Part shown: piece by piece, positions 17,238-46,435 of the stretch | How positions within the stretch are numbered: position 1 is the stretch's first letter | How the letters are laid out: every line of letters begins with the position of its first letter | DNA from: a virus | DNA: 53,187 bases | Virus record (IMG/VR): IMGVR_UViG_3300021371_000022 | Span: 1 to 53,187 of that record | Direction: 5' to 3' (one strand) | Position numbers and translations under genes: made by a program | Notes under the pieces: model-generated | Told to the model about the DNA's origin: nothing | Databases searched by the model: none | Seen by the model: the letters and a program-made list of their open reading frames with translations, nothing else

Positions 17238-17240
17238 AGC

Positions 17241-17366: not shown

Positions 17367-17382
17367 GTAATTCCCTTTAAGT

Positions 17383-17458: not shown

Positions 17459-17463
17459 ATATT

Positions 17464-17539: not shown

Positions 17540-17544
17540 ATACT

Positions 17545-17630: not shown

Positions 17631-17638
17631 TTTTATTT

Positions 17639-17715
17639 TGGAGGGCTACAAGAGAGTCGAACTCCTGACCTTCTGATTCGTAATCAGATGCTCTATCCAG
17701 CTGAGCTAGCAGCCC
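17639..17715 (-). tRNA. tRNA-Arg(ACG)
   Basis: Acceptor GGGCTGC/GTAGCCC, D arm TAGCTCAGCTGGATAGAGC, anticodon loop TTACGAA, CCA encoded after a T discriminator. ACG would be read as ICG after deamination. Confidence 0.9.
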
Positions 17716-17721
17716 TTAATT

Positions 17722-17795
17722 TGGCAGAGGATGTAGGAGTCGAACCCACGCCCGCAGAGTTGGAACCTGCTGTGCTACCGTAACACTTATCCCCT
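17722..17795 (-). tRNA. tRNA-Trp(CCA)
   Basis: Acceptor AGGGGAT/ATCCTCT, discriminator G, anticodon loop TTCCAAC with CCA at 34-36, encoded CCA tail. The 5' AGGGG end with G73 is typical of tRNA-Trp. Confidence 0.9.
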
Positions 17796-27755: not shown

Positions 27756-30632
27756 TTATCCTACTCCTGGCGATCCATAACCTAATGCTTGAGGACCTGT
27801 TGGTGATAATTCAAAAACAGAATCTACTGCATAATACCCAGAAGCAAAAGGAAATCTTTCAATCTTATTAGTCCCGCTTGAATCAGTCATTAAATAAGCG
27901 TCATAAGCGCCTGATATAGCAGTGCCTTTAGATTGTTGAGTGTGTACATAAGGAGCCTGTGGCGCTTGAGGCCCTCTTAGTTCTCCAAACCATTGATCTC
28001 TATTTTCACCGTAGCCAACTGTTCTACTATAACTAGCCAAGGGTATAACCGAAAAACCTGTTAAACCAGGAGTACTTGTAACAATATAACCAAGGTTACT
28101 CCAAGCGTACATTCTACCGCTTTCTGGAAAAGATCCTAAATCAGTTTTAGTGATAGAGGAAGAACCAGAAGCTCCTGCAAACCTATCAATATCATTATAA
28201 TTAGTATTTCCGGCATCACTAGGATATTTAGAAGCACCTGCTATTTGATAACCATAATCCATACTAGCGCCTGAAGCTTGTTCCATTCTAGAAGTAGTTA
28301 GAGTACTAGATTCAGCAGCATTAGTTTCAGAAGGAAAGACAAACTGTTCCATAGTACTAACTGCTGCTTTTGGACCTGTGATATTACCTGTCCAACCACC
28401 TGCTACATAACCTCTATTACTAATACCTAAAGAAAATCCTCCGTGCATTGCTCTACCAGTAGTTAGTGTGTCTACTGAAGATGCTATTGTAGTACTAGGA
28501 AAAGTAAAAGAAGCAATATCGGTAGTCATCCCTTCGTTAGTAGGAGAGTTATAGTGCCCATATCCTCCTGCTGAATAAGCTTTATTAGTACTATCTGGAG
28601 ATATTAACACAGCATGATTAGTAAAAGTATGAGAACTAGTAAGAGTTCCCGGATCTACAGCGACCCCACTCCCAGAGGTAAGTGGAAAGTAAGTTACCTT
28701 TCTTAAAGAAGTGTTCGAAGGCTCGTTAATACCGCCGCCGCCTATAGAACCTCCATATGCTTTATTTGATCCAGCAGAGTGATTAGGATAATAGTAACCA
28801 GGTTCTCCACTATAAGGACCTACAGGTGGGTAGCTAATCATTCTATTAAAGTAAACATCTCCAGCACTTGGAACAGAAGCAGCATTAGCAGTGTGCTGAG
28901 TAGGTGTTGAGGTTGGTACGTATTGTGAATAAGAATAAGCTGACACAGAGGGAACATTAGTATTAAATCTGAGATAAGCAAAACCTGGTTGAGCTTGATC
29001 TGCATAAGAACTATTTCCCATTATAGCAGCAGGGGTGTCACTAAACCCCTCATGACCTGGAAAACTTACAGGTCCTTGTCTACTACCGCTTGTATAAATT
29101 TTACCATAAGTAGCTGGAAAAACAGGAGCTTTCCAATTTCCTCCCGAACCTTTATTAACGGTTAAAGAGCCTGATCCAGGATATGCCGGTCCTGTGATAG
29201 GTACATTTCCTGGAAATCCGGATACTGTCATAGTATTAGGAAAAGTAAGAGTATATCCTACACCTCCAGCTCCTTGCATCTGTCCGAAAGTTCCGGGCCA
29301 TGCTGATATAGGTCTATTATGTTCTAAATTGACACCTGCATATCCAGTACCGTCATTAGTGTGTGTAGGGGTTTTTGCATTTGTACCTGCAGGAAGTGTT
29401 CCTACATCACCACCATCTCCGGCTTGTCCTAGTTTAAGTGCTAACATAGACCTATCAGTAACTGACATAGCATAAGGACTTTCTGTAGGCGCAGGAGAAG
29501 CTAACTCTGGCTGAGTATCCCATCCATGACGTCTATAACCTTTTTGTAAAAAAGAAAGTTGAGACCTAGGACCGTTTGTTGCATTTGTATAAGGAGTAGA
29601 AGGTATAAATCCTACAGCATAGGGCATACCTGCATCAGCAGCATCAGCGTTTCCCTCTAGCATACCACCTCGTTTACCTTGAAGACCTCCACCGGCTACT
29701 ACGTAGTTAGTACCATTAATATTAACAGAAGTAGTACCTCCACTACCGTCTGCAGGAGCTGATCCTATGCTAACCGAAATTGGAGTAGCAGGTGTAACAG
29801 GTATAGAGACAGGATAATAACCATGAGCGCCTGCTCCTCCCCCTCCAGCCCCTGCCATGTCTGTTTGATAAGTATAATGAGGTACCCACCACAACCCTCC
29901 ATCATAACTAGTCGGGGCTTCAGTAGCTCCAGGACCATCTCCACCAGTATAAAGATAAGGGCCTGTGCTACCCCCAGCACCGATTGCAGTCCAAATTTGT
30001 ACTGTAGATACTCCTTCTCCTACTAAATCACCTACTGTAGACCCTAAAGGAGCAGAAGGAGCGTCAAAAGCCATATCAACAACACCTGCTTTTTTATAAG
30101 CAGTAGAAGTATTTTCACTAGGAGACCCTGTTCCAGCATTATTAATGCCACGAATAACAAACTCATGAAGAAGTCCTTGGGGTGTTGTAGCATTAGGAAT
30201 TTTTAGAGTAATAGGAGAGGATGTAATAGGAGTTCCGTTTTCATCAGTACTAACATACGTATATGCTCCTCCTGCGGGAGCAGGTCTATATCCTATTTCC
30301 CAACTATTAGCAGTTTCTCCATTAGTGCTTTCTGTCCACGAAACATCAAACCCAAAAAAAGTATCTTCAGAAGTAGTAGCCGTAATAGTGGGAGCAGGAT
30401 GAACAGTAGCTTGAATATTATGAAGTTCATCTAAAGAAATAGCAGTTCCTGGAGTAGAAGGTATCGAAGATGTTACAAAGGGATCGCTAGAAGTGCCATA
30501 CCCATACTTCTCCCCCGGTGCAAGAACATTTCCAACACGATAGTCGTCTAACGATCCAGGGGCTGTTCTAAGGGGAGAGTATAAATCCTTAAGGTTTTGA
30601 AGGGAGATTGGTCCTGAAGTTGGAGTTCCCAT
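27756..30632 (-). CDS. large tail-fibre/adhesin with Fn3, glycine-rich and kelch-like regions
   Basis: A 958-residue virion protein. Residues 1-80 look like a phage attachment start (PTSGPISLQNLKDLY). About 80-190 is a fibronectin type III domain (FGFDVSWTE, SWEIGYRP, HEFVIRGINNAG). About 200-600 is glycine- and serine-rich with GGGGAG runs, as in glycine-sandwich receptor-binding tips of T-even phages. About 640-930 has kelch-like repeats (GYVAGGW, DRFAG, IERFPFASG). Its stop meets the small coiled-coil gene. It follows the S74 fibre gene with TAATG overlap, so both are probably parts of one fibre. Confidence 0.85.
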   Translation of the reverse strand: MGTPTSGPISLQNLKDLYSPLRTAPGSLDDYRVGNVLAPGEKYGYGTSSDPFVTSSIPSTPGTAISLDELHNIQATVHPAPTITATTSEDTFFGFDVSWTESTNGETANSWEIGYRPAPAGGAYTYVSTDENGTPITSSPITLKIPNATTPQGLLHEFVIRGINNAGTGSPSENTSTAYKKAGVVDMAFDAPSAPLGSTVGDLVGEGVSTVQIWTAIGAGGSTGPYLYTGGDGPGATEAPTSYDGGLWWVPHYTYQTDMAGAGGGGAGAHGYYPVSIPVTPATPISVSIGSAPADGSGGTTSVNINGTNYVVAGGGLQGKRGGMLEGNADAADAGMPYAVGFIPSTPYTNATNGPRSQLSFLQKGYRRHGWDTQPELASPAPTESPYAMSVTDRSMLALKLGQAGDGGDVGTLPAGTNAKTPTHTNDGTGYAGVNLEHNRPISAWPGTFGQMQGAGGVGYTLTFPNTMTVSGFPGNVPITGPAYPGSGSLTVNKGSGGNWKAPVFPATYGKIYTSGSRQGPVSFPGHEGFSDTPAAIMGNSSYADQAQPGFAYLRFNTNVPSVSAYSYSQYVPTSTPTQHTANAASVPSAGDVYFNRMISYPPVGPYSGEPGYYYPNHSAGSNKAYGGSIGGGGINEPSNTSLRKVTYFPLTSGSGVAVDPGTLTSSHTFTNHAVLISPDSTNKAYSAGGYGHYNSPTNEGMTTDIASFTFPSTTIASSVDTLTTGRAMHGGFSLGISNRGYVAGGWTGNITGPKAAVSTMEQFVFPSETNAAESSTLTTSRMEQASGASMDYGYQIAGASKYPSDAGNTNYNDIDRFAGASGSSSITKTDLGSFPESGRMYAWSNLGYIVTSTPGLTGFSVIPLASYSRTVGYGENRDQWFGELRGPQAPQAPYVHTQQSKGTAISGAYDAYLMTDSSGTNKIERFPFASGYYAVDSVFELSPTGPQALGYGSPGVG

Positions 30633-33070
30633 TATTTTTCCTCAATTTTTGCTTTTAATTCTTTAATAGCTTGAATGAGAAGAGGTACAACTCTACTATA
30701 ATCAACAGCTAAATAACCATCTTCTCTAGTTTTTACTGCTTCTGGTAGTATTTCTTGAAGACTTTGTGCAATTACTCCCACATCGTGACCCTCTAAATGC
30801 TTGTAATTAAGGCCGGCCTCCCTTGCGTTCCAATCAAACTCAACTCCGGTAATAGAATCTACTTTATCTAATGCGGAAACAATTGGGGTTATATTTTTCT
30901 TTAAACGAGAATCAGAAGTATTAAATGCTTCGACATCTCCACCTGCGTGAATAGCTCCTTCGACTCCTAAACCACCTGCTGTAATGATAAGAGCACCTGT
31001 ATCTTTTGAAGTTGATGCGGTAGCATTTGTTACAGAAAGTGAGTCGGACTCGAGAGTAGTAAAGTTACCTGTACCGGGTGTTGTAGCTCCTACATTAGTT
31101 CCATCAATAGCGCCTCCATCAATATTTACTGTATTTATAGTAACTGTTGTACCATTAAAGGTAAAGGTAGAGGCGTCTTGCAATTCTCCACTAGCACCAG
31201 CATAAATAACTCTGCCAGAAGTTAAATCAGCCACATTAGCAGAAGCTACTTTTAGCTGTGTTCCTTGTTTAAGATGAACATTACCAGAACCGTTAGGAGA
31301 TAAAATTATATCACCATTAGTGTCAGTAGAACTTATAGTTCTTCCATTAAGTTGTAACTGATCAACTAAAATATTAGTAGCAACTGAGTTCGTACCAATA
31401 GTGACGTCATCTATAGATCCACCATTAATATCAACAGACTGAGCGGTAAGAGTAGTACCATTAAATGTCAAGTCTGCATCAGTAACTATTTGACCACTTG
31501 TTCCTGTGTATAAAACTCGATTTATAGTTTGTCCTGTTACATAAACATTTGGAGATATTAAATCTCTTTGAGGACGAACATCTCTTGCGTATACGTCTTG
31601 ATAACCAGTAACTGTAAGAGAACCTGCTGTTGTACCGTCATCAGTAGTACTAAAAGCAGACCAACCATCGTTTGCTTCATCCCAAACCCAAGCCATATTG
31701 TCCACAGAAGGACGGTACACTAATAGTCCAGCATCATAAGAAGCAGGAGCAGCCTGATTATTAGCAACAACAATTAAAGGATCTTGTACTAAAAGGTTAG
31801 TAGCATCAGAAGTAAATGTTGAGCCTTGAACTACAAAATTACCTTCTACAAGCACATCTTGTTCAAAAGTTTTATCAACAGTAAACTTTTGAGAACCAGA
31901 ATGGATAGCAGTTACATTATCTTGTACTGTATTAATATTAGAAGTTAAATCGGCGTGTAATCCCTGTACCGCTGTGTTAGTTGTTGTAGCAAAATAATGA
32001 AGGTTGCCTTGTACCAAATTAACATTACTAGAAATACTAGTATGAACAGAGCTAAATCTAGTATTAGAGTAAGCACCTAATGCATGAACATTTCCTTGAA
32101 CAGTATCAATACGAGAATTAGAATAAGAACCTGTTATATGTAAATTACTTTGAACAGTATTTATGTCAGTATTAGCGCTATCAACCCCAAATATTAAAGA
32201 ATTTATTGAAGTATTTGTAGTAGAGGCATAGTGATGTAAATTCGTTTGTACACGACCGGCGGCAATATCTTGTGTAAGAGTGGCACCGATAATAACTAGA
32301 TTACCGTTAATTCTTAAATTACCGTTAATCTGCATCTGTGTATCAGGTACAATACCGCCTTCACCGACAATTATTTGATCACCTATCTCATCGTTAGCGA
32401 CATATCTAAATCCATTATCTCCAAAGGTTACTGATTCATATATTGATAAAGTATTGGCTCCTCTAATAGCTCCATACATTGTAATATTTCTAATTTGATG
32501 ATGAGTACCACCTACATCCATAAAACTTCTTAATACTAGATCACCACCAGCTACATCATTATCAACTTCATAAATACCAAAATTACGACTAGGAAGAATG
32601 GAAGAATTAGCAGTCAATAACTCATTATATTTATAACCATCACTAAAAAATGCCTTACTATGAGCGTGATCTACTGCAAAGTATCCATTGTAAGTTATAG
32701 GAGAAGGAAATTTAACATTACTTTCATAAGCAGTTTTAAAAATAACTCTTGCAGTAGTAACAAAAGCATTACCATTTTCTGTTGTGAATGTTAGTCCTCC
32801 TGATTCAATAGAAGCATTGTTTAAGACAGCATTATCTATTACAGGAAATCCATTAATACGAGTACCTTGTGACATATGTAAATTAGAATTTACTACAGAA
32901 GGCGTGCCTGGGCTATCATTCAAGGTTAACCCTTGCATGGTTACAGTAGTAATATTAACATTATCTAAGGAAGTTTGTACTGTAGAATCACTAATACCTA
33001 AATTATCAATTGCTCCACTTATATTATTGGAGCCAGTACCGCCAAGGGAGACTGGGACTATAGTTGCCAT
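30632..33070 (-). CDS. tail-fibre protein with S74 intramolecular chaperone
   Basis: An 812-residue trimeric-fibre protein. It starts ATIVPVSLGGTGSNNI, a common phage fibre start; the centre has beta-solenoid and coiled strands of the repeated type (STTNTSINSLI; NVHALGAYSNTRF). The last 94 residues are a peptidase S74/ICD chaperone (SDSRLKKNITPI, EGHDVGVIAQSLQEILPEAV, VDYSRVVPLLIQAI), which helps trimer folding and cuts itself off at the conserved Ser. The S-D-x-R-L-K-K-N-I start with its catalytic Ser is intact. A terminator and GAGAGG site lie upstream. Confidence 0.9.
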   Translation of the reverse strand: MATIVPVSLGGTGSNNISGAIDNLGISDSTVQTSLDNVNITTVTMQGLTLNDSPGTPSVVNSNLHMSQGTRINGFPVIDNAVLNNASIESGGLTFTTENGNAFVTTARVIFKTAYESNVKFPSPITYNGYFAVDHAHSKAFFSDGYKYNELLTANSSILPSRNFGIYEVDNDVAGGDLVLRSFMDVGGTHHQIRNITMYGAIRGANTLSIYESVTFGDNGFRYVANDEIGDQIIVGEGGIVPDTQMQINGNLRINGNLVIIGATLTQDIAAGRVQTNLHHYASTTNTSINSLIFGVDSANTDINTVQSNLHITGSYSNSRIDTVQGNVHALGAYSNTRFSSVHTSISSNVNLVQGNLHYFATTTNTAVQGLHADLTSNINTVQDNVTAIHSGSQKFTVDKTFEQDVLVEGNFVVQGSTFTSDATNLLVQDPLIVVANNQAAPASYDAGLLVYRPSVDNMAWVWDEANDGWSAFSTTDDGTTAGSLTVTGYQDVYARDVRPQRDLISPNVYVTGQTINRVLYTGTSGQIVTDADLTFNGTTLTAQSVDINGGSIDDVTIGTNSVATNILVDQLQLNGRTISSTDTNGDIILSPNGSGNVHLKQGTQLKVASANVADLTSGRVIYAGASGELQDASTFTFNGTTVTINTVNIDGGAIDGTNVGATTPGTGNFTTLESDSLSVTNATASTSKDTGALIITAGGLGVEGAIHAGGDVEAFNTSDSRLKKNITPIVSALDKVDSITGVEFDWNAREAGLNYKHLEGHDVGVIAQSLQEILPEAVKTREDGYLAVDYSRVVPLLIQAIKELKAKIEEK

Positions 33071-33676: not shown

Positions 33677-34409
33677 TACATTTGTCTCCTTGCTGAACTT
33701 CTAGTATAAATAATGGCTCAGTAGTAGAGTAATTACATAATTGATGCCAACTTCCTTGATCAATATCAATTGTTTCATGTTGTTTTACTATTTGACCAGG
33801 TACTACTCGTGTATTATACACATACGCAGTTCCTTTAACTACATACCAATGTTCAGACCTATGCTCATGTTTCTGAAAAGATAATTCTTTATCTGGTAAA
33901 ACATGAAGTTCTTTTACTTTAACAGACCCGTAATCTTTTAACACAGTCCATGTTCCCCACTCACGAACACAATGCTCGCCTGCCCAATTAGACAATAAAT
34001 GAGATGAAGAAGAGGTTTTTTGTCCTCCTACGTTCCATAGTAGCTCGATATCATTAACTAAACAATAATCAACTTCTGGAACATTAGTATTAGACCTATC
34101 CCCACCGTTAGCAAAATATAAAAGATTATCCTCTATACCATATATTTCTTTAAACTCTTTTAGCCCACTTAGAGCAGTACCATCACTGTCACTCATCACA
34201 ATAACTTCACAAACTCCTTTGATAGAGTTCATAATATATTGTCTTTGATCCTCATCCATAAAAGGTTTGCCCTTTTTGTTAGCAAGCCAACTATCAGAAT
34301 TAAGTAAAATAACTACATTACCTAATTCTGCTGCTTCCTCAATCATCTCTAAATGACCTTTGTGAACAGGGTCAAAACCCCCGCTTACTGCTACATACTT
34401 ATTTGTCAT
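33603..34409 (-). CDS. cytidylyltransferase-cupin fusion
   Basis: A 268-residue two-domain protein. Residues 1-130 have the nucleotidyltransferase HxGH motif GGFDPVHKGHL (H16, H19) and a DEDQRQYIM helix, as in glycerol-phosphate or sugar-phosphate cytidylyltransferases. Residues 140-250 are a cupin with FQKHEHRSEHWYVVKGTAYV and DIDQGSWHQLCN, the mannose-6-phosphate isomerase type. It may make and isomerise an activated sugar. The same fusion type is known to occur in marine phages. Substrate unclear. Confidence 0.8.
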   Translation of the reverse strand: MTNKYVAVSGGFDPVHKGHLEMIEEAAELGNVVILLNSDSWLANKKGKPFMDEDQRQYIMNSIKGVCEVIVMSDSDGTALSGLKEFKEIYGIEDNLLYFANGGDRSNTNVPEVDYCLVNDIELLWNVGGQKTSSSSHLLSNWAGEHCVREWGTWTVLKDYGSVKVKELHVLPDKELSFQKHEHRSEHWYVVKGTAYVYNTRVVPGQIVKQHETIDIDQGSWHQLCNYSTTEPLFILEVQQGDKCIEEDIERASSPTYDWRSKRDGITK

Positions 34410-34427: not shown

Positions 34428-34501
34428 TGGAGCGGCATAGGAGAATCGAACTCCTCTACATAGCTTGGAAGGCTAGTGCATTACCACTATGCTAATGCCG
34501 C
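34428..34501 (-). tRNA. tRNA-Gly(UCC)
   Basis: Acceptor GCGGCAT/ATGCCGC, D loop AGTGGTAAT, anticodon loop CTTCCAA, T loop TTCGATT, encoded CCA. Confidence 0.95.
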
Positions 34502-34503
34502 AT

Positions 34504-34580
34504 TGGTGACTTCGGAAGGATTCGAACCCTCGACCCACAGCTTAGAAGGCTGTTGCTCTATCCAGCTGAGCTACGAAGCC
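34504..34580 (-). tRNA. tRNA-Arg(UCU)
   Basis: Acceptor GGCTTCG/CGAAGTC, D arm GTAGCTCAGCTGGATAGAGC, anticodon loop CTTCTAA, CCA encoded. Reads AGA, a frequent codon in AT-rich phage genes. Confidence 0.95.
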
Positions 34581-35864: not shown

Positions 35865-36458
35865 ATGAAATTATCCGAACATATACAAAAGTTTTCACAA
35901 CAGTTATACGAAAAATATAAAAAAGTAAACCCAATAGAAATTATTACTAATTATCATTTTATAAGAGATGGTAAAGTATTTTACATTGAAAATGCTGAAG
36001 AAAATATGGTGTTTCCAAACTCTTATAAAAATACTATATCAAAAATAAAAGCAAAGAGCAAGAACACATTTAAAGTAGAAGCCTTTGAAAAGTATGATGA
36101 GTTTATATCAGATATATGTAATTATCAAAATAAAAAAGAATATATAGACTGTCATCTGTATTGGGGAAAAGTAGGAAAATCTAGTTTTATAAGTCATGTA
36201 GATCCTTATGATGTAGTAATTTTATTACTATCGGGAAATAAAAAAATGATATTTCCTGATACTAACGAAGAAATCATACTAAATCCAGGAGAGATTGTGT
36301 ATATACCAGGTAATAAAGCACATTATGCAGACAATTTAACAGAAAATATTTCTTTAAGCTTTGGTATTAGAAGATATTATAAAGAAATAGATTTAAAGTT
36401 ACAAACATTACAGATGGAAAAAGATGAAGAATATAACAGTATATCTGAAAACAACTGA
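35865..36458 (+). CDS. JmjC/cupin-like Fe(II) oxygenase
   Basis: A 197-residue protein with a JmjC/cupin-type iron site: H111-x-D113 in SFISHVDPYDVVILLLSGNK and H153 in GNKAHYADN. The block H-x-D-x-x-D-V-x-x-x-x-x-x-G-x-K is the hallmark of the 2-oxoglutarate-dependent cupin_4/ribosomal-oxygenase family, which hydroxylates amino acid side chains in proteins. Probably the first modifying enzyme of the operon, acting on peptide or protein. It overlaps the next gene by 35 bases. Confidence 0.75.
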   Translation: MKLSEHIQKFSQQLYEKYKKVNPIEIITNYHFIRDGKVFYIENAEENMVFPNSYKNTISKIKAKSKNTFKVEAFEKYDEFISDICNYQNKKEYIDCHLYWGKVGKSSFISHVDPYDVVILLLSGNKKMIFPDTNEEIILNPGEIVYIPGNKAHYADNLTENISLSFGIRRYYKEIDLKLQTLQMEKDEEYNSISENN

Positions 36459-37461
36459 AACTTGTCAATTAAATTGTAAACATTGTTTTACCAATGGTAT
36501 AAATGGTAAAAAAATATTTTTTAATTCAGAAAAAACTCTTAGTTGGATGAAAAAATTAAGAGAGTTCTATAAAGATAGTCATATTCATTTTGAGTTTCAC
36601 GGTGGAGAACCTTTTTTAGCTCCTCTATCTGATATGAGGTATATAGTTAATCAAACAAGAGACTGGGAGAATATTTCTTTTGGTATTACTAGTAATCTTA
36701 CTTTTAAACTAACTGAAGACAAAATAAATTTTATTATGGAAGATTTAAAAGGTGTCATAGGAACATCTTGGGACATGAGTATTAGATTTTCTAACGAAAA
36801 ACAAAAAGCATTATGGGAAGAAAATGTACTAAGATTAAAAAATTTGGGAGCTTACATAACACTATTTGTCAGCGTTACAAAAGAGCTTTGTAACACAGAT
36901 ACTCAAGAAATTATAGAGTATATAAACACTCTCAATGTTGATATTGTAGATTTTGAAAGATTAACGGGACACGGTAACGCACAACTGCACCCAGAAATAT
37001 TCCCAACTAATAAAGAACAAAGTGATTGGTTTCTAAAATTATATAAAAACAATAGTAAAAAAAATTGGGAAGATTCTTTTATTAAATCAATGGTTAATAC
37101 TAGAGTTAATGGTAATCAAACCGCAACTTTTTGCAGAGATTGTGAACAAAAACTATTTACCATTAATGCAGATGGTAGTATTAGTGGTTGTCCTAACTCA
37201 GCACCTGAAGAAGTATATGGAACAATAGAAGAAGAAATTTGGGAACTTATAGTTAACCCAAAACGAATGAAAATAATTGCTTGTGAAGCAGCACGAGATC
37301 CTAGATGTTATGAATGTGATGTTTTTGATATTTGCGGAAGTGGTTGTCATCAGCTTGAGTGGGACGAAACACATTGTCCATCGCCAAAAGAGCTATTTAG
37401 ATTATTAAAAAACACCCCTATAAAGGAGTTAAAACAAGGAGAGTATTATGTCAGCAATTAA
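36424..37461 (+). CDS. radical SAM/SPASM protein 1
   Basis: A 345-residue protein with C14-x3-C18-x2-C21, the GGEPF motif (EFHGGEPFLAP), and a SPASM-like C terminus (FCRDCEQKLF ... CYECDVFDICGSGC). SPASM radical SAM enzymes install thioether or C-C links, or epimerise residues, in peptide precursors. It lies directly before the likely substrate gene, whose start overlaps its end by 14 bases, the usual order in RiPP clusters. Confidence 0.9.
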   Translation: MKNITVYLKTTETCQLNCKHCFTNGINGKKIFFNSEKTLSWMKKLREFYKDSHIHFEFHGGEPFLAPLSDMRYIVNQTRDWENISFGITSNLTFKLTEDKINFIMEDLKGVIGTSWDMSIRFSNEKQKALWEENVLRLKNLGAYITLFVSVTKELCNTDTQEIIEYINTLNVDIVDFERLTGHGNAQLHPEIFPTNKEQSDWFLKLYKNNSKKNWEDSFIKSMVNTRVNGNQTATFCRDCEQKLFTINADGSISGCPNSAPEEVYGTIEEEIWELIVNPKRMKIIACEAARDPRCYECDVFDICGSGCHQLEWDETHCPSPKELFRLLKNTPIKELKQGEYYVSN

Positions 37462-38047
37462 TACAGGAGATGAGGTAAGTAAAACCGCTGTAGTAAATAG
37501 ATTTAATGAAGTTATGAGAAGTCAGATTAATCCAATAATTAATGTAGGAACTTCAACATCTTTTAGTAGTGGTAATTATAATCAATTTACTAACGTGCCT
37601 AGTGGAGGAGTTCCTTTTTCAAGAATCGGAACCCCTACAGTAGCACCCGCTGTTACTAGTGGATTAGGCAGTATTGTAGATGCAGCAGATTTAGCTACAT
37701 ATTTAAGAAATTTAACTCGTGATTATAGTGGAGTTAGAATAACAACATACAGATATAGGTTTAATAGAACAGGCTATCCTAGCGGTAACGGAAACAAAGT
37801 TATATCTTATAGAACTACTGATTATGTACATTATGATGGAGATGTTTATAAACAAACAGTTACAGACAATAGTGCTACGTATGACATTGAAGAAGGTGAC
37901 TTAATAGATGCATCAGATTTTGAAAGTTATATAGCAGATTTATATAATCAGTGGAATTCATTAAAAAATAATAGAGTAACAGTATTTGTAGATGCTTGTC
38001 ACTCAAGTTGCCATAGTAATTGTCACGGTTCAAGGGGAAGACGATGA
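37448..38047 (+). CDS. virion-like protein with Cys-His-Ser repeat tail, likely modified substrate
   Basis: A 199-residue protein. The start (SAINTGDEVSKTAVVNRFNEV) and middle (DAADLATYLRNLTRDYSGVR) read like a phage structural protein of the fibre-base type, and a DLIDASDFESYIADLYNQW helix follows. The last 18 residues, DACHSSCHSNCHGSRGRR, have three C-H-S/G-x units (C184, C188, C192) and a basic end. It sits between radical SAM genes with AAGGAG, typical for a RiPP precursor, but it is larger than most precursors. If so, the tail is the core that is modified. No other protein in the operon has such repeats. Confidence 0.75.
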   Translation: MSAINTGDEVSKTAVVNRFNEVMRSQINPIINVGTSTSFSSGNYNQFTNVPSGGVPFSRIGTPTVAPAVTSGLGSIVDAADLATYLRNLTRDYSGVRITTYRYRFNRTGYPSGNGNKVISYRTTDYVHYDGDVYKQTVTDNSATYDIEEGDLIDASDFESYIADLYNQWNSLKNNRVTVFVDACHSSCHSNCHGSRGRR

Positions 38048-38742
38048 GAATAATTAGAACTAAAGCGCCTATTGATGTAGAGTACTTACAAGAATATTTT
38101 TCTTCTGAAGAAGAGATTATTTTTGATATAATGTATTACGACTCTGATATAAAAGGAAAAACACTACTTAATTATGTATCTAATTTAGATATTAATTTTG
38201 AAATAAATCTATATAAAACCTCACAAGAAGAGAGGTATGATTTATTGAGTAACTATTTTACTACTAATTTATTAGTAAATTGTAAACAACTTGAACTAGC
38301 TTTGACATATATCGTATTAAAATACAATAATCGTTCAGTCGATGACCTATACTCTTTTACGCTGTTAAAAGAAGAATATGTAGATAAATTTATTGAAGAA
38401 CATAGAATACAGTTACTAAATACCACAGATTTTTTAGAATCATTACCAATTACAACACTGTCTTTTGTAGACTCTTTAAAAGATTTTGTTAATCAAGAAT
38501 TAAAAAATTATGAAATAATAGATGATCCTGAAATTTTAGGTAAAAACGTAATTAATCTAATTAACAATCCTTTTATCTTTAAAATATACGAAACTTCTGG
38601 TAGTAGAAAAAGATACTTTAAACACTACGCTGAAGAATATATCTATGACGAATCTAACTTATATGGTTGGATGGAAAAATATAATGTACCATTACTAGTT
38701 TTTGTTTCGGGGATTGCTTCTGGTGTTTTGCCTAGTAAATAA
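38044..38742 (+). CDS. unknown protein of the operon
   Basis: A 232-residue helical protein starting MRIIRTKAP at an ATG overlapping the substrate-gene stop (ATGA), with AGGGGAAG upstream. Mostly leucine- and tyrosine-rich helices, acidic. No family seen. Its place next to the substrate suggests a recognition or binding protein. Confidence 0.7.
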   Translation: MRIIRTKAPIDVEYLQEYFSSEEEIIFDIMYYDSDIKGKTLLNYVSNLDINFEINLYKTSQEERYDLLSNYFTTNLLVNCKQLELALTYIVLKYNNRSVDDLYSFTLLKEEYVDKFIEEHRIQLLNTTDFLESLPITTLSFVDSLKDFVNQELKNYEIIDDPEILGKNVINLINNPFIFKIYETSGSRKRYFKHYAEEYIYDESNLYGWMEKYNVPLLVFVSGIASGVLPSK

Positions 38743-39859
38743 AATATATTTAGATTATAATTTTTGTTATGATGCGGAAACACCTAAAATATTAGTAGGG
38801 TATAATGATCCTATACCTAATACTTGGAATTATTTTTCGGATGCTGATAAATTATTTGCTAGTAATACTTTAAAGAATATAAATAAAGATACTGAAATAG
38901 TAATTCTTGCTAAACAAAATGAGTATGTAAAAGTACTCACTACCTATTTAAAATCTATACTACCTAACCACTCAGTCGAGTCTTTGTATCATTTCTATAA
39001 ATTATTATTACAAAAACATATTTATCTTCATGGTAAATCATGTTTAGCACACGACAACGGCTCTGTAAATCTAAACTCGCCTTGGAACTCATTATCTTTA
39101 TTAAATGTTGAAGAATTTAAAAATATATATAATCAATGTAATAAACATCATTTAGATGATTTTTATATAAAAGGTGCAGGAATAGAGTTACAATTAGTTA
39201 GTTATTTAGCTAATACTAAATATACACATAAAGACATTTTATATAGTAAATTATATACAATAATCGCTGATACTGTTTTAAACGAAATTACCTATTGGAA
39301 AATGAATGTCATGTGTCAGCTCTTTGAATTAGGAGATTTGATAGAAGGAATTGATTATGGGTCAAAATTGTATGAATCTGCAACATATAAAGATTTAAAC
39401 TTACCAGAAGAATATAGCTGGCTTATGGATGAAAAAATAAAAGCTTATCCAGAACTAGAGTATATGTTAAAAAACTATGATTTAAAAAATATCTTTAAAC
39501 TTTATCGTAAATCAGTAATGAAATACGGGCATAATGGGTTTTTTGATAGTGAACAGCTAATGGAGCTTTTTGTAAGTGGAGATATTAGTTTAAGAAAAAT
39601 AGTTGATATAGATATTAATACTATATATGCTGGGGGTAATATAGGAGAATATCAACACCAAGATAAAACTACACATTATTTATTGAGATACTTTTACTTA
39701 TTATGTAAAGAAAAACGCTATGATAAGTTGTCTGAGTATTCTTTAGAAGAAAAAACTACAAAATTTAAACCTTTTATAAACTTAAAAAAGAGAAACACTA
39801 AAAAAGTAAAAGAATGGGCTCTAAAAGATCACCACAGTTTTAGAGAAGATTATGTATAA
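38723..39859 (+). CDS. unknown protein of the operon, start uncertain
   Basis: A protein of about 378 residues. No ATG near the front; the best start is GTG at 38723 (TTG at 38714 also possible), with overlap of the previous gene. Helical, with an aromatic-rich start (KIYLDYNFCYDAETPK) and a Lys-rich C terminus. No catalytic motif recognised. It overlaps the next radical SAM gene by 8 bases. Confidence 0.65.
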   Translation: MFCLVNKIYLDYNFCYDAETPKILVGYNDPIPNTWNYFSDADKLFASNTLKNINKDTEIVILAKQNEYVKVLTTYLKSILPNHSVESLYHFYKLLLQKHIYLHGKSCLAHDNGSVNLNSPWNSLSLLNVEEFKNIYNQCNKHHLDDFYIKGAGIELQLVSYLANTKYTHKDILYSKLYTIIADTVLNEITYWKMNVMCQLFELGDLIEGIDYGSKLYESATYKDLNLPEEYSWLMDEKIKAYPELEYMLKNYDLKNIFKLYRKSVMKYGHNGFFDSEQLMELFVSGDISLRKIVDIDINTIYAGGNIGEYQHQDKTTHYLLRYFYLLCKEKRYDKLSEYSLEEKTTKFKPFINLKKRNTKKVKEWALKDHHSFREDYV

Positions 39860-40841
39860 CACAGTTATAGATAAAAAAGCATCTACTCTAGGAGAGGTTA
39901 TTGTAACACTCTTTGAACACTGTAATCTTGCGTGTAGTTTTTGTTCTCAAAATCATAGTTCATTTAAGGGTGTGGAATCTATCCCAGAAAAATACTTTGC
40001 GATAAAAAGCGTCTACGAAGACTTACGCTCACAAAATAAAGAACAATTTTCATTTCATTTTATGGGCGGAGAGATTTTGAGTGATCAGATTTCAAATCAA
40101 ATTTTGAATAAAATTGAAGATTTAATTCTTAGATGTCAGCAATCATTTGAAAACAGTGAATTTCTAATAACCTCCAATATGGTATGGAGTAACAGAGATA
40201 GAGTAAAACAAATACTAGATAGATTGAATATCAAACTAGCAGTTAGTTACGACCCTGCAGGCCGCTTTAATACTAAGCAATTTGAACAGTTTATGGGTAA
40301 TGTTAAATACTTCAAAGAGTATATCACTACGGTAAATATAATATTAACTGCTCCTAACATTTATAAATTCTTATCTGATGAAATAATAGGTTTTGATTAT
40401 CTGTACGAACATTTTAATGTATACTTTGACTATTATACTCCTGAAAAAAACGCTAGTATAAACTGTCCTACAGACGTAGAACTATTAAACATATTTAAGT
40501 ATCTGTCTATTAATTATCCTAAAGTAGCACCAATAAACAAGTATTTATCTGGAGAAACTAAGAAAAATTTAACTTGTCAAAGAACAAAAGTAATAGCTGC
40601 TGATGGAGAAATAGGTCACTGTAATTTACTAGTTGGAGGCAATTATAGAGCATTAGCCCATGATAGTAGAGATAAAATGGAAGCTAAATGGATAGAGGGC
40701 TTTAACTGCTTAATGTGTGACCATTTTAGTAGGTGTGGATTAGGTTGCTTTCAAGAAAACCATATTTTACCGGAAAAAAGTACTATGGAACATTGCTGGA
40801 TTAAAGATTATTGGGAGTGGTTAGATGGAACTTATAATTAA
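39852..40841 (+). CDS. radical SAM/SPASM protein 2
   Basis: A 329-residue protein with C24-x3-C28-x2-C31 (HCNLACSFC), an MGGEI version of the GGE motif, and a C-terminal cysteine group (TCQRTKV, CNLL, CLMCDHFSRCGLGC, HCW). The spacing C-x2-C-x5-C-x3-C is the SPASM signature. Probably a peptide-modifying radical enzyme. Confidence 0.9.
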   Translation: MYNTVIDKKASTLGEVIVTLFEHCNLACSFCSQNHSSFKGVESIPEKYFAIKSVYEDLRSQNKEQFSFHFMGGEILSDQISNQILNKIEDLILRCQQSFENSEFLITSNMVWSNRDRVKQILDRLNIKLAVSYDPAGRFNTKQFEQFMGNVKYFKEYITTVNIILTAPNIYKFLSDEIIGFDYLYEHFNVYFDYYTPEKNASINCPTDVELLNIFKYLSINYPKVAPINKYLSGETKKNLTCQRTKVIAADGEIGHCNLLVGGNYRALAHDSRDKMEAKWIEGFNCLMCDHFSRCGLGCFQENHILPEKSTMEHCWIKDYWEWLDGTYN

Positions 40842-41898
40842 ACCAACAGAGCGTTGTAATTTTAAGTGTACTTTCTGTTCTAGTACAAAAATTGCAGATT
40901 CTAAATCTGTTGAATTGGAACACGAAAAAATATTTACTTTTTTAAAAAGGTTTCCACACACTAATACTATTATTGTGAATGGTGGGGATCCTTTGATGAT
41001 GAAACCTAGTTATTATTGGAAAATAATTAAATATTTAGAAGATAATAATTTGGATACTACAATATCTTTGACTACTAACTTGTGGCCTTTTTACACTAAA
41101 CCATCTAAATGGTTATCTCTTTTTCAGCATCCTAGAGTAGGAGTTTGTACTTCTTTTCAATATGGAGGAGGTAGATTAAAAGGAGATTTTACAGAATTTA
41201 GTGAAAAAGATTTTTGGAAAGTATCTGATAAAATGTTAGATCTTGTAGGTTATAGACCTGATTTTATTTCTGTAATCACAAAAGAAAATGAAGACAGAGC
41301 AATAGATAACGTACTCTTAGCTAAAGAAATGGGAGTAGTGTGTAAACTAAATTATGCTGTCGCAAGCGGTCCAGAAATTAAATTTCTTAATGGAATTAAA
41401 ATGGGATTAGAAAACTATACTTATCTTTTAGCAGATATATATGAAATCTATCTTAAAATATATAAACAAGGATTAGCCGATTGGGAGTATAATACTACTC
41501 AGTTATTAAAAAGATTTTCTTCTAATACTACTTGTCCACAAAACCGAAATTGTGATTCAAATATCAGAAACTTAAATCCAGGAGGTGACTATTATTCTTG
41601 TGGAGCTTTTGGAGATGATAAAGAATATGAAATAGATTTTGATAAAGAAATGAATCAGAGGAAAATAGAAACTCCTCTACAAAACTCTATTGAATTATTA
41701 TCACTAAAGCAAGCGTGTTTTACTTGTCCTATGTTTAAAATTTGCAATGGTTGTAAAAAAACTATCAGCGATATAAAAAGACTAAACTTAGTAGAGACGC
41801 ACTGTAAAAAAATGAAGAAACTAGCACCTGAAATAATAGAAATATGTAACCTAGAAGATAAACTAACGGAGTATATAGATGAATCAGTATACGCATAG
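40825..41898 (+). CDS. radical SAM/SPASM protein 3
   Basis: A 357-residue protein with C11-x3-C15-x2-C18 (RCNFKCTFC), the NGGDPL motif, and a SPASM-type end (TCPQNRNCDSN, YYSCGAF, CFTCPMFKICNGCKK). Start overlaps the previous gene by 17 bases. It shares the operon with three others, so each may act on a different residue. Confidence 0.9.
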   Translation: MELIIKPTERCNFKCTFCSSTKIADSKSVELEHEKIFTFLKRFPHTNTIIVNGGDPLMMKPSYYWKIIKYLEDNNLDTTISLTTNLWPFYTKPSKWLSLFQHPRVGVCTSFQYGGGRLKGDFTEFSEKDFWKVSDKMLDLVGYRPDFISVITKENEDRAIDNVLLAKEMGVVCKLNYAVASGPEIKFLNGIKMGLENYTYLLADIYEIYLKIYKQGLADWEYNTTQLLKRFSSNTTCPQNRNCDSNIRNLNPGGDYYSCGAFGDDKEYEIDFDKEMNQRKIETPLQNSIELLSLKQACFTCPMFKICNGCKKTISDIKRLNLVETHCKKMKKLAPEIIEICNLEDKLTEYIDESVYA

Positions 41899-42676
41899 AA
41901 AACTATGGCCTACACCTGTTCTACTAGGAACAGTAGATAAACAATTAGCCAAGGATTTATTTAATTATATACTGAGCAAGTACCATAATCCTGATGAAAA
42001 AACAGAAGTATTTAACCTGTTTTCTATCGGTGAACCTCTTTTGGATAATTTATACAAAAATTATATTGTTCCTGCTACAAAAGAATATATTAAAAATAAT
42101 TTATTTCAGTCTAACCATTATGAAATAAAATCCTATGCTTGGGCCCATGTATTACCACAAGGACAAAATGTGGGTATTCATAATCATCCTAACAATCATA
42201 TAAGTGGCACTATATGGTTAAGCGATCATGATAGTCATCTTTTAATGGTTGATCCAAAAGGTAATTCTAACATGATGGATTTTGGATATCTAGATTTAGA
42301 AATGCTAACTAAAAAAGGTATGACTGTTGGAAATGATGAAATAAGACATAATCATACTTCTAGATATAATGAGTATGGTAGACAGATGAATAATAGTACT
42401 CTAGATTTTTCTGGATTATTTGGTGACTATGTTGATACATTTGATAAACCAACTCATTCTGTAAACCCAACCAACATCACTATTAAACCAGAACTTGGTA
42501 AATTTATACTATTTCCCTCATGGGTTTGGCACGAAGTAGAACCTAATCAATCTAAACTGCCTAGGATAAGTATATCTTGGGATACTAGAATTACTCCAAA
42601 GATAAAAAAAGAGCACAATATTCATTATGAACAAGACATTAGAGTATTAGGAGATGTTCTTGATGTACAAAGTTGA
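41879..42676 (+). CDS. 2OG-Fe(II) oxygenase
   Basis: A 265-residue protein of the phage 2OG-oxygenase type: NVGIHNHPNNHISGTIWL (H101/H103), VDPKG, and FPSWVWHEVEP (H218) then RISISWDTR for 2-oxoglutarate. These hydroxylate proline, lysine, aspartate or similar residues. It has a longer middle loop than usual. Probably hydroxylates the peptide or fibre protein. Confidence 0.85.
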   Translation: MNQYTHRKLWPTPVLLGTVDKQLAKDLFNYILSKYHNPDEKTEVFNLFSIGEPLLDNLYKNYIVPATKEYIKNNLFQSNHYEIKSYAWAHVLPQGQNVGIHNHPNNHISGTIWLSDHDSHLLMVDPKGNSNMMDFGYLDLEMLTKKGMTVGNDEIRHNHTSRYNEYGRQMNNSTLDFSGLFGDYVDTFDKPTHSVNPTNITIKPELGKFILFPSWVWHEVEPNQSKLPRISISWDTRITPKIKKEHNIHYEQDIRVLGDVLDVQS

Positions 42677-43079
42677 AAAAGGTGAACTACACCACTTACC
42701 AATACTAATAGCTTTATCCTATAATATGACAGAAGAAGAACGTGATGAAAAAGATGATTTTATCGAGTTAATAAAAGAACAAAGAGTACATCTACTATAT
42801 TTAAAAGATAAACCTATTGGATATTATACAGTAGTATCTATTGAGAGAGGAGAGTATCTTGAAACTATCTTAATAGATAAAAAGTATCAAGGTAAGGGTG
42901 CTATTAATAAATTAGGCGAATATGCAGTAAAGTCAAAAAATGGAAAGCCTCTTTGGGGGTTGAGCCGTCACAGAAGAGTAGATATGTTATTAAAAAAATT
43001 TGGATTTGAACCAAAAGAGTATGAAATTATTAAAGGAGTTAGTTATAGATGGTGGATAAACCGTTTTCAGTCTCAATAA
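42663..43079 (+). CDS. GNAT-family acetyltransferase
   Basis: A 138-residue protein (start MYKVEKGEL with GGAG upstream) with the acetyl-CoA loop of the Q-x-x-G-x-G/A type in DKKYQGKGAINKLGEYAV. It may acetylate a lysine or N terminus of the product or inactivate it against self-toxicity. Confidence 0.8.
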   Translation: MYKVEKGELHHLPILIALSYNMTEEERDEKDDFIELIKEQRVHLLYLKDKPIGYYTVVSIERGEYLETILIDKKYQGKGAINKLGEYAVKSKNGKPLWGLSRHRRVDMLLKKFGFEPKEYEIIKGVSYRWWINRFQSQ

Positions 43080-43963
43080 ATCCTAGTTACTTTTGTAATT
43101 TTAGGTGTAATTTTTGTTATTTAACTCCTGAACAACTTGGAGATCAGAAAAAAATTGACCCTAAAAAATTAGATAAGTTGTTATCAAACATACCTAAAAT
43201 AGATCATATAGACTTATATGGAGGAGAAATTGGAGCGCTCAAGAAAGACTATTACTATGAAATCAAGTCTGTTATACGTAAACACTATAATGATTACATC
43301 AATATTAATACTAATTTTTCTATGCTTGACGACAGATTCTTCGAGGATGATATCACTCTTTCCGTCTCATATGATTTTTCCGCAAGAGAAAAATCAAAGT
43401 TAGTATTTCAAAATATGCTGATGAGTCCAAAACCTATTTCCGTATTAATTCTTGCTTCTGAAGAAGTATTAAAATTAGATATTAATTCTATGATAAAACA
43501 ATTAAATATGTGTAAATCAATTATATCTGTAGAAATAAAACCTTATAGTACTAATCAAGCTAATAAACACGTTGTTACCCATAAAGATTTTGAAAACTTT
43601 GTTATCAAATGGATTGAGAGTCCAGTAAAAAAACGCTTTGAATTTCAAAACCTAAACAGAATAAAGAGAAGTGTAAGAAAAGAATATAATGCTTTTTCTG
43701 ACGACCACATCTACATTACTCCAAATGGTAAATATGCTGTATTAGCTTTTGACAAAGAAGATAGTGAGTATTTTTTAGAATTTACTAACTACTCTAGTTT
43801 TGAACAATGGGCTTGGACAGAAAAGAAAACTCTTTCTACTATCTGTAGCGGTTGTTATTGGAAAGGACATTGTTTAACTGAACATTATAGACATGTAAAA
43901 GATTTAAGAAATAGTTGTAATGGTTATATAAATTTATTAAGTAGATATAGTAATGCGTTTTAG
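43049..43963 (+). CDS. radical SAM protein 4
   Basis: A 304-residue protein with C16-x3-C20-x2-C23 (YFCNFRCNFCYL), the YGGEI motif, and a reduced C-terminal cysteine group (CSGCYWKGHC, CNGY). It is shorter than its three operon relatives and has fewer C-terminal cysteines, so it may lack one auxiliary cluster. Confidence 0.85.
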   Translation: MVDKPFSVSINPSYFCNFRCNFCYLTPEQLGDQKKIDPKKLDKLLSNIPKIDHIDLYGGEIGALKKDYYYEIKSVIRKHYNDYININTNFSMLDDRFFEDDITLSVSYDFSAREKSKLVFQNMLMSPKPISVLILASEEVLKLDINSMIKQLNMCKSIISVEIKPYSTNQANKHVVTHKDFENFVIKWIESPVKKRFEFQNLNRIKRSVRKEYNAFSDDHIYITPNGKYAVLAFDKEDSEYFLEFTNYSSFEQWAWTEKKTLSTICSGCYWKGHCLTEHYRHVKDLRNSCNGYINLLSRYSNAF

Positions 43964-44609
43964 TTTTTCAGATCATAGCGATAACTTTGATGAGCATATT
44001 AATAAAAGTATTATTTCGTATAATAACTTAGTAGATATGATTATTACTGTATCTGGATTTTTTATACAAGATAATACAACAGTATATGATTTAGGATGTT
44101 CTACTGGTAAAATTTTAAGGAAAATAAAAAAAGCGTCACACGCTAATAATGTTTCGTATATCGGAATAGATAATGAAACAGCTTTTTCCCCATACTGGAA
44201 AGAAAAAGACATAGAGTTTAAAATTGAAGATGTGAGAAAACTAAAGTTTGATAGTGATGTTTCTTTAGCTATCTCTACCTTCACTCTTCAATTTTTACCT
44301 ACTATTGATAGAGTAAAATTATTAAAAAACATATATGATTCTTTAATACCAAACGGAGCATTAATACTTTGTGAAAAAACATATTCTAATGATTCTATGT
44401 TACAAGAAGTATTTACTTTTGCTAACTATGATTATAAAGCTAAATTTTTTAGATACGATGATATAATGTTTAAAGAAAAGGAGTTAAGAGCCTCTATGAA
44501 TATTAGATCTTGGGACGCTATTTTACAAGAAGTAGAAAAAATAGGATTTAAAAAGTATGAAGTATTCTGGAAGGCGTATAATTTTGTAGGAGTCATATTG
44601 GTAAAATGA
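43953..44609 (+). CDS. CmoA-like SAM enzyme
   Basis: A 218-residue class I SAM protein that looks most like CmoA, the carboxy-SAM synthase of tRNA cmo5U formation: DEHINKSIISYNNLVDMI, YDLGCSTG (45-52), the TFTLQFL block (109-115), ALILCEKTYS and a C-terminal helix with EKIGF then FWKAYNFVG. CmoA uses SAM and prephenate. The region where the E. coli enzyme has the prephenate-binding arginine appears to be Glu here by eye, so it may be a plain methyltransferase instead. Unusual in a phage RiPP-like operon. Confidence 0.7.
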   Translation: MRFSFSDHSDNFDEHINKSIISYNNLVDMIITVSGFFIQDNTTVYDLGCSTGKILRKIKKASHANNVSYIGIDNETAFSPYWKEKDIEFKIEDVRKLKFDSDVSLAISTFTLQFLPTIDRVKLLKNIYDSLIPNGALILCEKTYSNDSMLQEVFTFANYDYKAKFFRYDDIMFKEKELRASMNIRSWDAILQEVEKIGFKKYEVFWKAYNFVGVILVK

Positions 44610-45118
44610 TTACTTATAAACAAGTAATAAAAAAAGGTTTTGCTTTTGAGAGTATTATAATACCTAAAAATATAAAAACAGAACTAAAAGCATTAACTTT
44701 TTATCCAAATGAGGACAAAGATTTAGGGAAAGAAGTAGGATGGTCTACACTAGGTATGCCTACTAATCTTAATGAGTTCTTTATCGAACAATTATATGCA
44801 AAAGTAGACCCATACTTACAGAAACTTTTAGATAAGCTAGAAACTTTTGAAGCGTATAAAACAGATAAAAATGAGTATGTAGAATTACATACAGATAATG
44901 CTTTTGGTGGGTTAGTTCAAATTATGATTTACTATATTGAAAAAGATATGAAAGGTAGGGACTTTTTATATGGAACAAAAAATGATATTAAAAAAATAAC
45001 TCCCTACACAGGATTAGTAATTATATGTGATCAAATAAATAAAGAATGGTTGCACGGAACAACTCCTTTATTGAGTGACACTTTTAATTTATGTATTACA
45101 GGAATCACACCTAGATGA
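44606..45118 (+). CDS. small 2OG-Fe(II) oxygenase-like protein
   Basis: A 170-residue protein with the prolyl-hydroxylase-type iron motif H95-x-D97 (VELHTDNAFGG) and a distal histidine H150 (WLHGTTPL). The spacing of about 55 residues and the strand-rich middle support the jelly-roll fold. The third oxygenase of the operon. It overlaps the next gene by 4 bases. Confidence 0.7.
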   Translation: MITYKQVIKKGFAFESIIIPKNIKTELKALTFYPNEDKDLGKEVGWSTLGMPTNLNEFFIEQLYAKVDPYLQKLLDKLETFEAYKTDKNEYVELHTDNAFGGLVQIMIYYIEKDMKGRDFLYGTKNDIKKITPYTGLVIICDQINKEWLHGTTPLLSDTFNLCITGITPR

Positions 45119-45798
45119 ATAAAAAAGAATTTTACAGAAAAGAACATTATGAAAAAAAGAACTGGCTTCATAAAAACGGAAGAGTTAATGCCACGGTTGC
45201 AGGTAATAACTGGGTTGGTGTATCTGTCTCTCCTTATATGAAAGATTTTAAATATCAAGTAGATCCTGGTATTTGGCCTCTAGTAGAAATACTTAATAAA
45301 AAAGGGTATTTAACTTGTTCTTCTTGCGAAGGGCATGATTGGATGGAAGAATCATTTGTTGTTGTTTGCTTTGGTTCTAAAGAATCGAGAGATGCTTTTG
45401 CTGAACAAGTTGTTAAAGCAAAGCTGCCGCAGTATAGAATTTTTTATCAAGAATCACAGACTAACATTAACCTATACGATCCTTTTAATGATTATCATGA
45501 AATAATGGATGACCCAACTATGGATGAAACTCAAAACTGGTTTAAGATTGAAGATAAATTATACTTCACAAAAATAGAAGAAGAGATACCAGAAGAAATT
45601 ATTGAAAAAGAAACAGAAAATTGGAATTACTGTTTTGGTAGAAAGTATAAAAGATGGTACTATTGCAGACTACTAATAGGAGGAGCTGTGTTGAACGGTA
45701 AAAACCCAGTAAGCATAGTAGTTCATTGGACTCGATATTTCTGGATTAATAGGCTAGCAAAGTTTATAAAAGAAAACGTGGAGCAAGGATATGACTGA
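45115..45798 (+). CDS. unknown protein with C-x2-C-x-G-H motif
   Basis: A 227-residue protein. The segment DPGIWPLVEILNKKGYLTCS is followed by SCEGHDW; the C-S-S-C-E-G-H turn with a preceding helix recalls the metal- or SAM-linked start of TYW3-like proteins and of several phage small proteins, but no family can be named. The end is basic and aromatic. Coupled with both neighbours. Confidence 0.6.
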   Translation: MNKKEFYRKEHYEKKNWLHKNGRVNATVAGNNWVGVSVSPYMKDFKYQVDPGIWPLVEILNKKGYLTCSSCEGHDWMEESFVVVCFGSKESRDAFAEQVVKAKLPQYRIFYQESQTNINLYDPFNDYHEIMDDPTMDETQNWFKIEDKLYFTKIEEEIPEEIIEKETENWNYCFGRKYKRWYYCRLLIGGAVLNGKNPVSIVVHWTRYFWINRLAKFIKENVEQGYD

Positions 45799-46435
45799 TA
45801 AGTTTGTAGAAATTCAATATGACTCTGACAATATCGTTGAATATGTGTATAAAAGCAATTCAAATGAAAAAGATATACTAGAACTAAAAAATAAATTGTT
45901 TATAAATTTTAGTGAAGAAATAACTAAAGATTTAACTTTTTCTCACGATATGATTAGTTATCATCCAAAAAATAATACTACATATAAAGAAGATTCAATA
46001 ATTATAGTATTCAGTGAAAAATGTCCTTATTACTTAAGAGAAGAGTTTAACATTCCTTTTTTTAATTCATTAGATTTTTATGCAATAAAATATTATTTAA
46101 CTAGTAAAAAAAGAATACTAAAAACTTACGATGCCGATATGTATAAATATGAAATACCTCAACTTCCCCATATGTCTGCTATAGGTAATCAATTTGGGGT
46201 TGGAAGAACACACGCATTAGACAAAGAATATAGAGATGTATACTTTTTTAACTCAAATGATATGATGGTTAATTATTTTTATGGAGACTTAGTTCCTAAA
46301 ATTGGTGAACCATATAAAAATCCCGCAACTAAATGTTACGGGATTACTTATGAAGAAGGAGAAAAAGATATTCTTAAAGTAAAAAGATATTTATTTCCCT
46401 TTCATTTAGAAATGACAGATTTATCTTGTTTATAA
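45791..46435 (+). CDS. unknown last protein of the operon
   Basis: A 214-residue protein, strand-rich and aromatic (SHDMISYHPKNNTTY, KRYLFPFHLEM). Last gene; converges with thyX with a 6-base overlap. A hairpin AATCCCG/CGGGATT near 46320 lies within the gene, maybe slowing read-through. No known family. Confidence 0.6.
   Translation: MTDKFVEIQYDSDNIVEYVYKSNSNEKDILELKNKLFINFSEEITKDLTFSHDMISYHPKNNTTYKEDSIIIVFSEKCPYYLREEFNIPFFNSLDFYAIKYYLTSKKRILKTYDADMYKYEIPQLPHMSAIGNQFGVGRTHALDKEYRDVYFFNSNDMMVNYFYGDLVPKIGEPYKNPATKCYGITYEEGEKDILKVKRYLFPFHLEMTDLSCL

Follow-up and report, generated by a model that had tools for sequence, protein, structure and literature searches.

A radical SAM enzyme module of large bacterial viruses adjoining a candidate substrate with a conserved CHxS tail

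Several described systems share features with a putative protein-maturation operon found in a virus (IMG/VR virus record IMGVR_UViG_3300021371_000022; the 53,187-nt stretch analyzed is termed the window), which joins genes for radical S-adenosylmethionine (rSAM) enzymes and oxygenases to a gene for a protein ending in Cys-His-Xaa-Ser (CHxS) repeats. The His-Xaa-Ser system (HxsA/B/C/D) has an HxS repeat in its substrate and the paired rSAM maturases HxsB and HxsC, which were among the weak matches of the operon, and the CXXX-repeat rSAM system (TIGR04115) is similar in having a Cys at every fourth residue. The nearest described families of two of the enzymes, rSAM-A and rSAM-C, were PapB (ranthipeptide) and DynA (dynobactin), respectively, which are maturases that link Cys or His/aromatic residues. 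The Campylobacter phages CP220 and CPt10 also have several clustered rSAM genes, and a metabolic role has been proposed for these rSAM-rich modules (PMC2853527). The predatory bacterium Bdellovibrio has mosaic adhesive trimer (MAT) fibres, which are tail-fibre-like proteins with an S74 chaperone (PMC10769870).

The locus differs from each of these systems. In comparison with His-Xaa-Ser, its repeats start with Cys, three repeats are followed by RGRR, at least four rSAMs are accompanied by oxygenases, and it is viral and linked to fibre genes; no match to HxsA was found, and the scores for HxsC (34.4 bits) and HxsB (27.1 bits) were below the cutoffs of 267.9 and 370 bits, respectively. In contrast to TIGR04115, the CHxS repeat is fixed, and rSAM-B scored 20.1 bits against a cutoff of 350. 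The match of rSAM-A to PapB (Table 1) and that of rSAM-C to DynA (53.6 bits; cutoff 450) also fell short, and the precursors are unrelated; the CHxS protein matched no NCBIfam precursor family tested for ribosomally synthesized and post-translationally modified peptides (RiPPs). Viperin (NF038283) was rejected as a candidate family at 33.7 bits (cutoff 180). Unlike the window, CP220 contained no CH..CH motif in any frame and no homologue of the cupin, of rSAM-C, or of the family encoded at 38020. In contrast to MAT fibres, the S74 domain near chromosomal copies of the module is joined to a pilin-type methylation motif at the N-terminus and adjoins the CHxS module, and rSAM modification of MATs was not mentioned in the passages of PMC10769870 that were searched. 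We regard the system as a variant of rSAM protein maturation, in which phage rSAM enzymes and probable iron oxygenases fairly probably act on the (CHxS)3 tail at the C-terminus of a tail-linked virion protein.

CHxS tail and its adjoining rSAM genes

The module is common to many large bacterial viruses, with a conserved core, and is apparently undescribed. With rSAM-A as the query, 48 loci were detected in IMG/VR, 42 of which had the tail; in the other six, the rSAM match ran off the contig. In 42 of 42 untruncated loci, the open reading frame (ORF) directly downstream of rSAM-A ended C-terminally in CH..CH..CH. The tail endings were R.RR in 37 of these and CHGSI in five (L035, L036, L037, L040, and L041), with rSAM-A just upstream in the latter. 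Scanning for the tail motif only, with no rSAM required, detected at least 119 viral stretches, together with 19 in GTDB genomes, and collapse at 90% identity left 138 substrates. An rSAM gene was present within 8 kb, as judged with an rSAM hidden Markov model, in 124 of the 128 non-redundant tail proteins with enough flanking sequence, and each of the four exceptions had less than 1.7 kb of sequence downstream. The reciprocal search from the 38020 family revealed a CHxS ORF in 79 of 80 loci, the exception being cut 54 bases from the gene; the locus counts include overlapping contigs and hence are not independent events. Since the repeat stood at the C-terminus of more than 180 distinct ORFs adjoining rSAM genes, chance is excluded. 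The initial annotation of the window had let its proposal depend on the enzymes and a substrate-like gene being found together elsewhere, and these searches found them so. As is general for RiPPs and rSAM-modified proteins, the precursor gene adjoins the maturase genes.

Among 50,697 phage records, rSAM-A, rSAM-C, and the 38020 family were found together in seven (Phosso, two Atu_ph07 records, FLC6, FLC8, SURPRISE13, and pPa_SNUABM_DT01), and rSAM-C at E<=1e-20 was detected in phages only in these records. A further weak and partial rSAM-A match, covering 45% of the query, was seen in the gut phage Phass-1. In Frankia, Pseudoalteromonas, and Bordetella, the motif was judged to be matched by chance, as no long ORF terminated in it and no rSAM was present. 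A bacterial assignment was rejected for the matches in Rhodobacteraceae and a Bacteroidetes bin, because a phage tail sheath gene was present on the Bacteroidetes contig and on two of the three contigs from Rhodobacteraceae. In the Burkholderia phage modules L004 and L006, rSAM genes flank two genes that carry a dihydrofolate reductase annotation.

The window protein encoded at 37448, in which a Cys-His-Ser repeat had been noticed at the outset, ends in CHSSCHSNCHGSRGRR. The tail consensus, CHxSCHxSCHxSRGRR, is almost invariant, on a body that varies, the mean identity being 31% for the body and 83% for the tail. The scan pattern prescribed CH and Arg but left the Ser and Gly positions free; the latter showed Ser at -13 in 122, Ser or Asn at -9 in 131, Ser at -5 in 121, and Gly at -3 in 121 of 135 proteins. 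The synonymous codons for the fixed Cys and His were used near evenly, indicating that conservation of the tail acts at the protein level. When related modules were compared, the body diverged faster than rSAM-A, and the tail stayed approximately 86% identical; the CHxS protein thus shows the conserved core and variable remainder expected of a RiPP precursor. CHxS proteins are 125-310 amino acids (aa) long with a partly structured body, and the same tail also occurs on a different body family, consisting of tandem proteins of 125-140 aa. No clear homology was found outside the tail between the bodies of the tandem and main families, and the tandem-family loci carry a 38020 homologue (hhalign 2.4e-20). 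The substrate of locus L105 has four CHxx repeats, with several rSAM genes alongside. Three BFVD proteins of 504-660 aa from Myoviridae sp. ctijX18 (A0A8S5USJ7, A0A8S5USJ8, and A0A8S5USV2) matched the substrate fold at E values of 2e-5 to 3e-3; the alignments for structure models were built without the proteins of the named phages.

Tail fibre linkage and chromosomal copies

A gene for a shared tail-fibre C-terminal domain was located within 5 kb upstream, on the same strand, in 56 of the 77 loci with at least 3.5 kb of upstream sequence. Electrospray ionization tandem mass spectrometry of Atu_ph07 virions revealed virion-protein clusters at coding sequences (CDS) 31-76, 170-215, and 284-329 (Attai et al. 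2018, PMC6102473). That paper and RefSeq number the portal (gp198) and the prohead core (gp204) alike, and the CHxS protein is gp170; we infer from the cluster boundary that gp170 was detected in virions. A structural cluster of AP-J-162 ends at ORF 63 (PMC11242549), which, at a guess, might be the CHxS gene if the gene order matches that of Phosso. The initial annotation had proposed that the phage modifies one of its own proteins, perhaps a virion part. Fibre linkage and the Atu_ph07 cluster suggest that the substrate is probably a virion part, and its modification is predicted.

The module also occurs on Bacteriovoracales-type chromosomes, and in the four GTDB genomes in which it was covered over a long stretch (L194-L200), the neighbour genes are of cellular type. 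The neighbours tested by Pfam (S20, methionyl-tRNA synthetase, pyruvate kinase, and acyl-CoA dehydrogenase) covered three of the four genomes. In those three, a nearby protein contained Peptidase_S74 (E values of 8e-13, 3e-16, and 1e-12), with the pilin methylation motif in two. The exact tail pattern was found in 5 of the 129 genomes of that order, indicating that the module is sporadic within it. The carriers are related to known bacterial predators. In L200 (genome G003), a single CHxS protein is surrounded by several rSAM genes, and the 18 kb read showed no pilin-S74 protein. A VWND protein by the chromosomal modules matched the phage fibre domain only weakly (hhalign E 0.003, probability 10%), and no relationship is claimed.

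These arrangements bear on an alternative in which the modified protein functions within infected cells, for instance as a metal, heme (CX3CH-like), redox, or host-takeover factor, with its proximity to tail genes incidental. A CH..CH..CH sequence could bind metal, and the position of the gene varies in some loci, the window included. However, the same-strand fibre linkage in most loci, the virion-cluster boundary in Atu_ph07, and the surface-type pilin-S74 genes adjoining the chromosomal copies make an intracellular role unlikely.

Operon genes and conservation of the enzymes

All 14 ORFs that the initial annotation had described as overlapping and opposed to the surrounding direction are present on the plus strand at positions 35865-46435, with tight overlaps and both flanks on the minus strand (Table 1). 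Its four rSAM proteins were backed by Pfam PF04055/PF13353 and phrog_1802, and its JmjC/cupin oxygenase belongs to JmjC_2 (43.4 bits; cutoff 22) with the HxD..H triad 100% conserved. Of its two proteins resembling 2-oxoglutarate (2OG) oxygenases, the one encoded at 41879 is clear, whereas the product of 44606 matched no family and has only the HxD..H motif, which was retained in six of six members seen, some of them overlapping copies. The GNAT match it reported is present but weak, and its CmoA-like enzyme is a methyltransferase, better described as a generic SAM methyltransferase whose nearest PHROG is phrog_4752 ('tRNA methyltransferase').

Table 1. Genes of the operon and the nearby tail fibre gene in the window
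Feature	Position	Strand	Evidence
JmjC_2/cupin protein, probable Fe(II)/2OG oxygenase	35865..36458	+	PF08007 E 2.9e-11; 64/123 representative loci
rSAM-A, SPASM-type cysteines, directly upstream of CHxS gene	36424..37461	+	best NCBIfam PapB 52.9 bits, cutoff 340
CHxS protein, probable substrate, 199 aa, variable body, C-terminal CHSSCHSNCHGSRGRR	37448..38047	+	
38020 family, conserved partner of unknown function	38020..38742	+	79/80 family loci hold CHxS ORF
Unknown protein, 38702 family	38702..39859	+	phrog_36207; hhalign f23 vs f6 E 7.5e-31, 355 columns
rSAM-B, SPASM-type cysteines	39852..40841	+	CxxxCxxC and auxiliary Cys 97-100% in 67 relatives
rSAM-C, SPASM-type cysteines	40825..41898	+	conserved Cys
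2OG-Fe(II) oxygenase	41879..42676	+	PF13759 E 8e-19; H103, D125, H218, R229 conserved at 94-100%
GNAT-type acetyltransferase, accessory	42654..43079	+	PF13508 E 7e-5, below cutoff; 4/123 representative loci
rSAM-D, four auxiliary Cys (one extra cluster, twitch-like)	43049..43963	+	Cys 100% in 45 relatives
SAM-dependent methyltransferase, accessory	43953..44609	+	PF13649 E 2.5e-9; phrog_4752 E 1.5e-52
Probable 2OG oxygenase, HxD..H motif only, accessory	44606..45118	+	no Pfam match
Unknown accessory protein	45115..45798	+	8/123 representative loci; TYW3-like match weak, E 0.015, not significant
Unknown accessory protein	45791..46435	+	6/123 representative loci
Tail fibre with Peptidase_S74 chaperone (context)	30632..33070	-	PF13884 E 1.3e-15; tail-fibre PHROGs

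The core module has fewer than 14 genes and comprises the cupin, rSAM-A, the CHxS protein, the 38020 and 38702 families, rSAM-B, rSAM-C, rSAM-D, and the 2OG oxygenase, and the GNAT, the methyltransferase, and the last three operon genes recurred in only a few of the 123 representative loci. The four rSAM enzymes are orthologous between loci, and the 2OG oxygenase often accompanies them. The 38702 product and the 38702-like genes of other loci belong to one superfamily. The likely start of the 38020 gene is the ATG at 38044, which overlaps the stop codon of the substrate gene; the AF2 model of its family reached a pLDDT of 92 and showed no fold match against the PDB.

Conservation was calculated in families of 45-79 sequences each, and across rSAM-A to rSAM-D the cysteines, with the SPASM-type ones of A, B, and C and the four additional ones of D, were 96-100% conserved. 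In rSAM-A, CxxxCxxC and further Cys were 96-100% conserved (79 relatives), and in rSAM-D, C16, C20, and C23 together with C266, C269, C275, and C290 were invariant. The triad of the cupin consists of H111, D113, and H153 (67 relatives). Intact CxxxCxxC and auxiliary-cluster cysteines are as in RiPP and other rSAM systems, and the near-invariant rSAM cysteines and HxD..H triad support the view that the enzymes are active, as predicted from their metal-binding residues.

The same gene content could be read as a bacteriocin-like RiPP, secreted or released after cleavage from the C-terminal end of the 37448 product and aimed at competing phages or bacteria. rSAM/SPASM and oxygenase genes with a Cys-rich tail are a RiPP layout, the best weak rSAM matches were the peptide maturases PapB and DynA, and the chromosomal module L196 has ABC transporter genes only a few genes away. 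Nevertheless, no protease, transporter, or immunity gene was recognized by Pfam in the window module, in which proteins of unknown function remain, the precursor is a partly structured protein of 125-310 aa, and its gene is placed with tail genes and marks the edge of a cluster of virion proteins in Atu_ph07. A secreted peptide is thus quite unlikely, and the peptide against rivals or host suggested in the initial annotation is unsupported so far. It is very unlikely that the tail is left unmodified by enzymes, binding metal or forming disulfides, with the rSAMs acting on tRNA, glycans, or small molecules: the methyltransferase resembles a tRNA methyltransferase family, but SPASM-type rSAMs commonly act on peptides or proteins and the CHxS gene, rSAM-A, and the 38020 family were adjacent one-to-one, near-obligately, in both search directions.

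Elsewhere in the window, a fifth rSAM-like gene lies outside the operon at 20003-20971 (-) (phrog_21308, E 4.5e-7). At 33161-33676 and 33603-34409 (-), a SleB-type cell wall hydrolase gene (PF07486) overlaps one for a fusion of a cytidylyltransferase with a mannose-6-phosphate-isomerase-type cupin. tRNA clusters are located at 16672-17795 (Glu, Met, Asn, Leu, Arg, and Trp) and 34428-34580 (Gly and Arg), both on the minus strand.

Proposed maturation of a virion protein

A predicted modification of the CHxS tail of a probable virion protein is the reading we prefer, and several points weigh against it. The fibre domain was not found in 21 of the 77 loci, approximately six of which adjoin another tail protein; in the window itself, the flanks are on the other strand, with no fibre gene directly upstream, and the nearest S74 fibre gene is the one listed in Table 1. 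The presence of gp170 in virions rests on the cluster boundary, and gp171 and gp172 (rSAM and cupin) lie within the same range of CDS 170-215, so that this boundary does not cleanly split substrate from enzymes. No rSAM reached an NCBIfam equivalog cutoff, the scores being far below, and no PqqD-like RiPP recognition element was detected by Pfam in the window proteins, although such elements often escape Pfam. The substrate model gave no fold match against the PDB.

For the modification of the tail, its chemistry, the location of the protein in the virion, and its role in contact or entry, we propose the following. The operon would be a phage-encoded protein-maturation module, whose rSAM enzymes would cross-link the Cys, His, or Ser residues of the tail or introduce other C-H modifications there and whose oxygenases would hydroxylate His, Arg, or other residues. 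The modified tail may be a rigid cap, and the finished protein would be built into the tail or fibre apparatus, where it would aid contact with or entry of the cell envelope. The tail stays constant across differing hosts and bodies, so it probably serves a general step, such as binding to the envelope, penetration, metal binding, or stability of the particle, with specific fit left to the body. More tentatively, the viral system might cross-link (CHxS)3 into a rigid polycyclic tip that engages or pierces the envelope, with bacteria of the predatory order using the same on pilus-fibre hybrids.

To our knowledge, rSAM maturation of a virion attachment part is known in no virus. A description of the tail or module was not found in the open-access literature searched, subscription papers and preprints being outside this coverage, and module genes appear in the FLC6 and S13 papers as annotations only. 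The system yields a defined substrate motif, undescribed rSAM enzymes, and an uncharacterized partner family for enzymology, and the cultured phages Atu_ph07, Phosso, FLC6, and S13 are open to direct tests. If the proposal is true, phages would put complex radical chemistry on their own attachment machinery, and a conserved tail would be shared by large phages that are unrelated and by a few members of a predatory bacterial order.

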